A stretch of DNA of 16,678 bases, from contig JAJRSX010000202.1 of the NCBI GenBank assembly GCA_024278555.1, positions 1 to 16,678 on the forward strand. Direction: 5' to 3'. Source of the stretch: a bacterium. GTDB taxonomy: Bacteria > CG2-30-53-67 > CG2-30-70-394. Below are positions 12,645 through 14,458 of this stretch, piece by piece (position 1 is the stretch's first letter; each line of letters opens with the position of its first letter). The translations under genes and the position numbers were made by a program. The notes beneath the pieces are model-generated. The model was not told where the DNA came from and did no database searches. It was given only the letters and a program-made list of their open reading frames with translations.

Positions 12645-13304
12645 ATGAGCGACACACCCAGCGACACGGCGACCGACACCGACCACCTGAGCGACCGCCG
12701 CTTCGACGATCTCACCCTCCCCGAGTCTGTCCGGCAGGGGATCCGCGATGCCGGCTTTACCCACTGCACCCCGATCCAGGCCCTCACCCTGCCCCCGGCG
12801 CTTGCGGGCGAGGGGGTCGCGGGACAGGCCCACACCGGCACCGGCAAGACCGCCGCCTACCTGATCACCGCCTACAACACCCTGCTCACCCGCGAGCCGC
12901 GCAAGCTCACCGGGCGGGAGGCGGAAAAGGCCGCGCCGCGCTGCCTGATCCTCGCCCCGACCCGCGAGCTGGTCGCCCAGATCCACCACGACGCCGAGAT
13001 CCTCGGCGCCCACACCGGCCTGAAGATGGTGGTGGTCTACGGCGGCATCGACTACGACAAGCAGCGCAAGACCATCACCGCCGGCTGCGACATCCTGGTC
13101 GGGACGCCCGGCAGGCTGATCGACTATTTCAAACAGGGGATCTACACCCTCAAGGGGATCCAGGTGGCGATCCTCGACGAGGCGGACCGGATGTTCGACC
13201 TCGGCTTCATCAAGGACATCCGCTACTTCTTCCGCCGGATGCCGCCATACGACGCGCGCCAGTCGATGCTCTTCTCCGCCACCCTCGACCCCAGGGTGAT
13301 GTAG
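12645..13304 (+). CDS. rhlB: RhlB-type DEAD-box RNA helicase, N-terminal half (RecA domain 1), ends at amber codon
   Basis: This 219-residue open frame holds the whole first RecA domain of an RhlB-like RNA helicase. The Q motif spans Phe20-Gln45. Motif I AHTGTGKT is at 62-69, PTREL at 105-109, TPGR at 154-157, DEAD at 178-181 and SAT at 211-213. It also has RhlB-like stretches such as YGGIDYDKQ and DLGFIKDIRYFFRRMPP. RhlB unwinds RNA and partners RNase E in the degradosome in Gammaproteobacteria. The frame stops at TAG (13302-13304) where RhlB has a glutamate in RELAFEQM; here the sequence reads RVM-stop-LAYEHM. The second half continues in the same frame. I chose the ATG at 12645; no strong Shine-Dalgarno sequence is present. 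A single GAG to TAG change explains the break. Confidence 0.9.
   Translation: MSDTPSDTATDTDHLSDRRFDDLTLPESVRQGIRDAGFTHCTPIQALTLPPALAGEGVAGQAHTGTGKTAAYLITAYNTLLTREPRKLTGREAEKAAPRCLILAPTRELVAQIHHDAEILGAHTGLKMVVVYGGIDYDKQRKTITAGCDILVGTPGRLIDYFKQGIYTLKGIQVAILDEADRMFDLGFIKDIRYFFRRMPPYDARQSMLFSATLDPRVM
13302..13304 (+). other. In-frame amber codon interrupting rhlB
   Basis: The reading frame from 12645 to 14180 is continuous except for this TAG. It replaces the glutamate expected in the RELAFE-type segment just after motif III, at the hinge between the two RecA domains. TAG is the ordinary stop of argF, dxr, the PAP2 gene, the TPR gene and cheB in this window, so a reassigned amber codon is unlikely. 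Confidence 0.9.
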
Positions 13305-13319
13305 CTCGCCTACGAGCAT

Positions 13320-14180
13320 ATGGACATCCGCGAGATGCTCGCGGTGGACACCGGGCGCAAGACCGCGGAAAAGGTGAAGCAGCGCATGTACCACGTGGCG
13401 AGCGACGAGAAGCTCTCCCTGCTCCTCGGTATCCTCGCGAAGGAGAGCCCCGAGCGCACCCTGGTCTTCGTCAATACCCGCCGCGAGGCGGGGTGGCTGG
13501 AGCAGCGGCTGATCCGCGCCGACTTCGCCGCCCGGGCGCTGACCGGCGACGTCGAACAACGCAAGCGGCTCCGCTACCTCAGGCAGTTCATCGAGGGCGA
13601 GGTGGACATCCTCATCGCCACCGACGTCGCCTCCCGCGGCCTGCACATTCCCAACGTCTCCCACGTCATCAACTTCGACCTCCCCGATGACAAGGAGGAC
13701 TATGTCCACCGGGTTGGCCGCACCGCCCGGGCCGGCGCCGAGGGGACCGCGATCTCCTTTTGCTGCGATCGCTACTGTCTCAACCTGCCGGCGATCCAGG
13801 AGTTCCTCAACTTCCCCATCGACACCTCCCTGCCCCCGGAGGAGCTCTTCGCCGATCCGGAGCTGGTGCGCCACGCCCTCGGCGGTCCGAAAGGGTATGT
13901 CGAGCGCGACAAGCGAGCGAAGGGACGTCCGGGCGGGCGCGGCGGTGATCGCGGTGGACGGGGTGGCCGCCGCGGCGACCGTGGTCGCGGCCCACGGCAC
14001 CGATCGGCAGAGAGCGGCAGTCCACCACGCCCGGCGCAAGCGGAGGAGGGGCGCGGCGCCAAGGCCGCCACAAACCCCGCGGGTGGGCCACCGAAGCGCA
14101 AGCGGCGGCGGCGCCGCCGCCGACGCACCAACGCCAACGCGGCCACCAACGCACCCGCTCCACCCAAGGGCGACACATGA
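13320..14180 (+). CDS. rhlB: RhlB-type DEAD-box RNA helicase, C-terminal half (RecA domain 2 and RGG/Arg-rich tail)
   Basis: This segment, in the same frame as the upstream half, encodes the second RecA domain. It has [10 protein letters not shown] (motif IV, 48-57), [10 protein letters not shown] (motif V, 101-110) and HRVGRTAR (motif VI, 130-137). After residue 195 comes a basic tail with RGG-type repeats (about 200-228) and a [11 protein letters not shown] tract (259-269), suited to RNA or RNase E binding. The ATG at 13320, 15 bases after the amber codon, could allow restart, but only a weak GAG precedes it. The domain shows no other lesion, so the stop is either recent, a sequencing error, or tolerated as a split protein. 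The TGA overlaps the start of the next gene (ATGA). Confidence 0.85.
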
Positions 14181-14458
14181 ACCGCAAGGTAATCCTCTCT
14201 CTCCTCGGCGTGGCCGCGGCGGTGGCGCTCCTCTTCTACCTCTCCATGTCGGGGAATGCCTACGAGTGTAAGGTGACGATACAGTTCGCCGGCACCACCC
14301 TCCACCGCACCGGCGCCGGCACCAGCGAGAAGGAGGCGATCCGCGCCGCGGTGGAGTCGGCCTGCGGCACCCTGGGGCTGGCCATGAATGACCAGATCCG
14401 CTGCCAGAACACCCCGCCGGTGGAGGCGCAGTGCGAGGGGCCGTCGTCGGGGTACTAG
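14177..14458 (+). CDS. Small cysteine-containing protein with N-terminal membrane segment
   Basis: This 93-residue protein has a basic N-terminus (MNRK), a hydrophobic stretch at residues 5-23, and a soluble remainder with four cysteines (31, 63, 76, 86). It is therefore probably a signal-anchored or exported protein facing the periplasm, with two possible disulfides. The soluble part ([18 protein letters not shown], then [14 protein letters not shown]) suggests a strand-strand-helix fold. I recall similar small hypothetical proteins but cannot name a family. The ATG overlaps the rhlB stop as ATGA, a layout typical of translational coupling, so its expression may depend on ribosomes ending rhlB. 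It has no recognised function. Confidence 0.7.

Follow-up and report, generated by a model that had tools for sequence, protein, structure and literature searches.

In a draft genome of the CG2_30_70_394 lineage, a name that is a GTDB placeholder applied from genus up to phylum (PMC8728215), the rhlB helicase frame runs on the forward strand from an ATG at 12645 to a TGA at 14178-14180 and carries one TAG inside it, at 13302-13304. This raises the question of whether the two sides of the TAG are made as separate proteins, whether the TAG is decoded as a sense codon, or whether an ordinary gene has been interrupted by a single base change, in the sampled cells or in the consensus. The gene lies in a window of 16,678 nucleotides, the whole stretch of DNA analysed, which is contig 183 of the 3.06-Mb, 211-contig assembly. 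A preliminary description of this DNA had placed the TAG exactly at the interdomain hinge, and had offered a recent nonsense mutation, a read error, suppression and a split helicase as options.

As assembled, rhlB is not an uninterrupted reading frame. When read through the TAG, the frame encodes a single RhlB-like protein of 511 residues, and only in this read-through frame are motifs Q, I, II (DEAD), III (SAT), V and VI and both RecA domains present together. The best match of the read-through protein was the NCBIfam RhlB model NF003419 (509 bits across model positions 3-382), yet the score falls short of the curated cut-off (588), which is not surprising in so distant a lineage. The two halves match adjoining stretches of this model, positions 3-205 and 215-382. 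The 5′ part (12645-13304, forward strand) comprises 219 codons of RecA domain 1, with a Pfam DEAD match at 12768-13289, and ends at the TAG; the 3′ part (13305-14180, forward strand) comprises the end of RecA1, the linker, RecA2 with a Pfam Helicase_C match at 13407-13736, and a basic, low-complexity tail that ends at the TGA. The gene resembles RhlB (NF003419/PRK04837) in its motifs and its score when read through, and differs in that one Glu codon is TAG, so that the assembled gene does not encode one protein. These results agree with the preliminary description as to the identity of the gene, the position of the TAG, the absence of a frameshift and the intactness of the motifs. The end of rhlB overlaps by four bases (ATGA) with a 93-codon reading frame on the same strand (14177-14458), which has a hydrophobic N-terminus, a TAG stop and no Pfam match.

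The state of the codon before the change was determined by comparison with relatives. The TAG occupies the codon for residue 220, which is GAG in a same-genus relative (87% identity in the rhlB core by tblastn) and GAG or GAA in every close RhlB orthologue that was compared, a set of about 90 loci drawn from Gammaproteobacteria among other groups; the codon differs from GAG/GAA only in distant DEAD-box paralogues. Given this distribution, the TAG is, on codon comparison, a derived single-base Glu-to-stop change (GAG to TAG), as had been proposed earlier as the simplest change and as the intact codon in the genus relative bears out. The local sequence had been given as RELAFE, and the residues around the stop actually read RVM*LAYEHM. 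Relative to the genus relative, dN/dS was 0.21 upstream of the TAG and 0.23 downstream, in a comparison that omits the fast-evolving tail. The two halves thus show equal purifying selection, with no sign of decay in the downstream part, so the stop is either recent or not real. The dN/dS values alone would also be compatible with continued use of the downstream part.

Such continued use is what a functional split helicase would entail, in which each half is translated by itself, with re-initiation at the in-frame ATG at 13320-13322 (forward strand) giving the second half, and the two then reassemble. The kept frame, the intact motifs, the undecayed downstream part and the presence of this ATG 15 bases past the stop codon, the next in-frame ATG as had been described, would all fit such a split. 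The position of the break does not. A structure predicted from an alignment of 15 sequences, with core pLDDT mostly between 75 and 95, placed residue 220 within the final RecA1 helix (216-225), which is followed by strand 230-233, a low-confidence linker at about 234-243, and RecA2 from strand 244-250. The stop is therefore predicted to lie within RecA1 and not at the interdomain hinge where it had been placed, and the linker, at which a two-gene split helicase would be expected to break, is predicted to be left whole. In this model the final strand of RecA1 would belong to a product starting at Met226 and be missing from the upstream product. In addition, the ATG at 13320 is not a new start but the codon of an old, conserved internal Met226 in the AYEHM motif, as the orthologue comparison showed, and its nearness to the stop is unremarkable because, for about 16% of the codons sampled in rhlB, an ATG follows at a distance of six codons or fewer. 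No Shine-Dalgarno-like sequence was seen before it, which weighs little against re-initiation since the main start at 12645 also lacks one. Neither the genus relative nor any of the roughly 90 orthologues showed an RhlB split at residue 220, although a few of these carry flagged stops whose positions were not placed individually. Given also that unrelated genes of the same genome have similar lone stops, the reading as a naturally split helicase is rejected, and we regard working halves of this kind as extremely improbable.

The TAG might alternatively be decoded as a sense codon at a rate sufficient to yield full-length protein, a reading that could draw on the fact that TAG accounts for six of the seven lone internal stops detected in the genome, several of them in conserved genes. 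The termination and decoding machinery speaks against it. Release factor 1 (RF1) is present and intact. There were 48 tRNA matches genome-wide, and in the stretches that contain them ARAGORN resolved 47 distinct tRNAs. The amber suppressor tRNA that had been suggested as worth seeking was not found, no CTA anticodon occurring among these 47 in a draft genome that may be incomplete. Nothing above the cut-off was found for PylS, which pyrrolysine coding would need. In sampled stretches totalling 952 kb, TAG terminates 275 of 705 predicted genes (39%; gene counts are approximate and come from a coding-potential caller of our own, which had been trained on the genes of the window). The distance from a TAG to the following in-frame stop (median 48 codons) is no shorter than that from a TGA (41 codons). 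Neither the RF1 loss nor the depletion of terminal TAG that would mark amber recoding was thus found, and TAG serves as a normal stop here, as had been stated in the preliminary description. Amber recoding and pyrrolysine coding were rejected on the basis of RF1, the tRNA set, terminal TAG use and the failure to find PylS. The occurrence of one TAA among the lone stops and of one frameshifted gene likewise argues against decoding of TAG, and codon usage alone gives a TAG share of 67.5%, so that six of seven is as predicted. Altogether, amber readthrough or recoding sufficient for full-length RhlB is very unlikely. A leaky reading of UAG that needs no dedicated suppressor tRNA, whereby amber codons would be tolerated in rhlB, the aminotransferase, MotB, CbbQ and other genes named below, is hardly to be expected.

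The lone stops themselves were obtained from the same 952-kb sample, in which seven genes, rhlB included, have a lone internal stop; these were selected by visual inspection out of 40 flagged stops, the remainder of which mostly resembled gene boundaries. The six genes besides rhlB lie on other contigs. A lone TAG was found in genes for an alanine/LL-diaminopimelate aminotransferase (L156:6584, minus strand; GAG in the relative), MotB (L168:7769, plus strand; GAG), CbbQ/NorQ (L189:2681, plus strand; CAG), a FAD-binding fumarate-reductase-like protein (L162:2687, plus strand) and a beta-propeller-like protein named from its sequence only (L176:17749, minus strand), the close counterpart codon of the last two not being found in the relative. 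An MMPL protein gene (L215:2177, minus strand) has a lone TAA where the relative has GAG. Relatives or family matches run across the stop in five of these six genes. In addition, a CBS-domain gene is frameshifted, as judged by reading frames, with respect to the genus relative (L230 near 7305, corresponding to contig 164 near 27305), and it was the only one of five frameshift-like flags that looked real. Several internal stops flagged when orthologues were compared, L185:4105 and L169:11206 among them, proved to lie in antisense or upstream frames that are not genes. A separate observation from these stretches was a pair of adjacent plus-strand frames at L155:10284-11903, one ADP-ribosyltransferase-like and one macrodomain-like, which, judged by its sequence alone, resembles a DarT/DarG-type toxin-antitoxin pair. 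In 850 kb of the genus relative (585 genes, likewise approximate) there was one lone-stop candidate (L277:17214), and the difference between 7 of 705 and 1 of 585 reached only p = 0.08. The ancestral codon could be identified for five of the stops, and in four of these it encoded Glu, against 27% expected (p = 0.02); the changes may thus not be purely random.

Given that similar lone disruptions occur elsewhere in the genome, the rhlB stop is best placed within this background of isolated disruptions. The TAG is very probably a lone one-base GAG-to-TAG change in an rhlB that is ordinary in every other respect. The change would be either a recent nonsense mutation in the sampled population or a wrong consensus base in the draft genome, and these two are about equally probable. 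Thus, from the options offered earlier, nonsense mutation and read error survive, and suppression and a split helicase do not. The locus resembles an ordinary nonsense pseudogene or draft-genome consensus error in having one substitution, an intact gene elsewhere along its length, an intact relative and other isolated disruptions in the genome. An isolated nonsense codon in rhlB has little significance alone; since about 1% of the genes predicted in this draft genome carry a lone stop, caution is called for against reading a single broken gene in it as biology without reads.

If the TAG is real, RF1 would terminate translation after residue 219, and the resulting RecA1 fragment would break off halfway through its final helix and lack its final strand, with little or no RecA2 being made. 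The cell would then rely on its other DEAD-box helicases. In Caulobacter, rhlB null mutants are viable with a mild growth defect in the cold, and extra rhlE may compensate for this defect (PMC10715135). Nothing useful on naturally occurring nonsense alleles of rhlB was found in the literature searched. No second rhlB, a copy of which had been suggested earlier as worth seeking, was found in the genome. The sole other full-length match to RhlB is a DEAD-box helicase on C180, which is 37% identical, has no stop inside its DEAD domain, and scores best with CshA and then with RhlE2, DbpA and RhlE, all below the cut-offs. The genome also has two RNase E/G genes.
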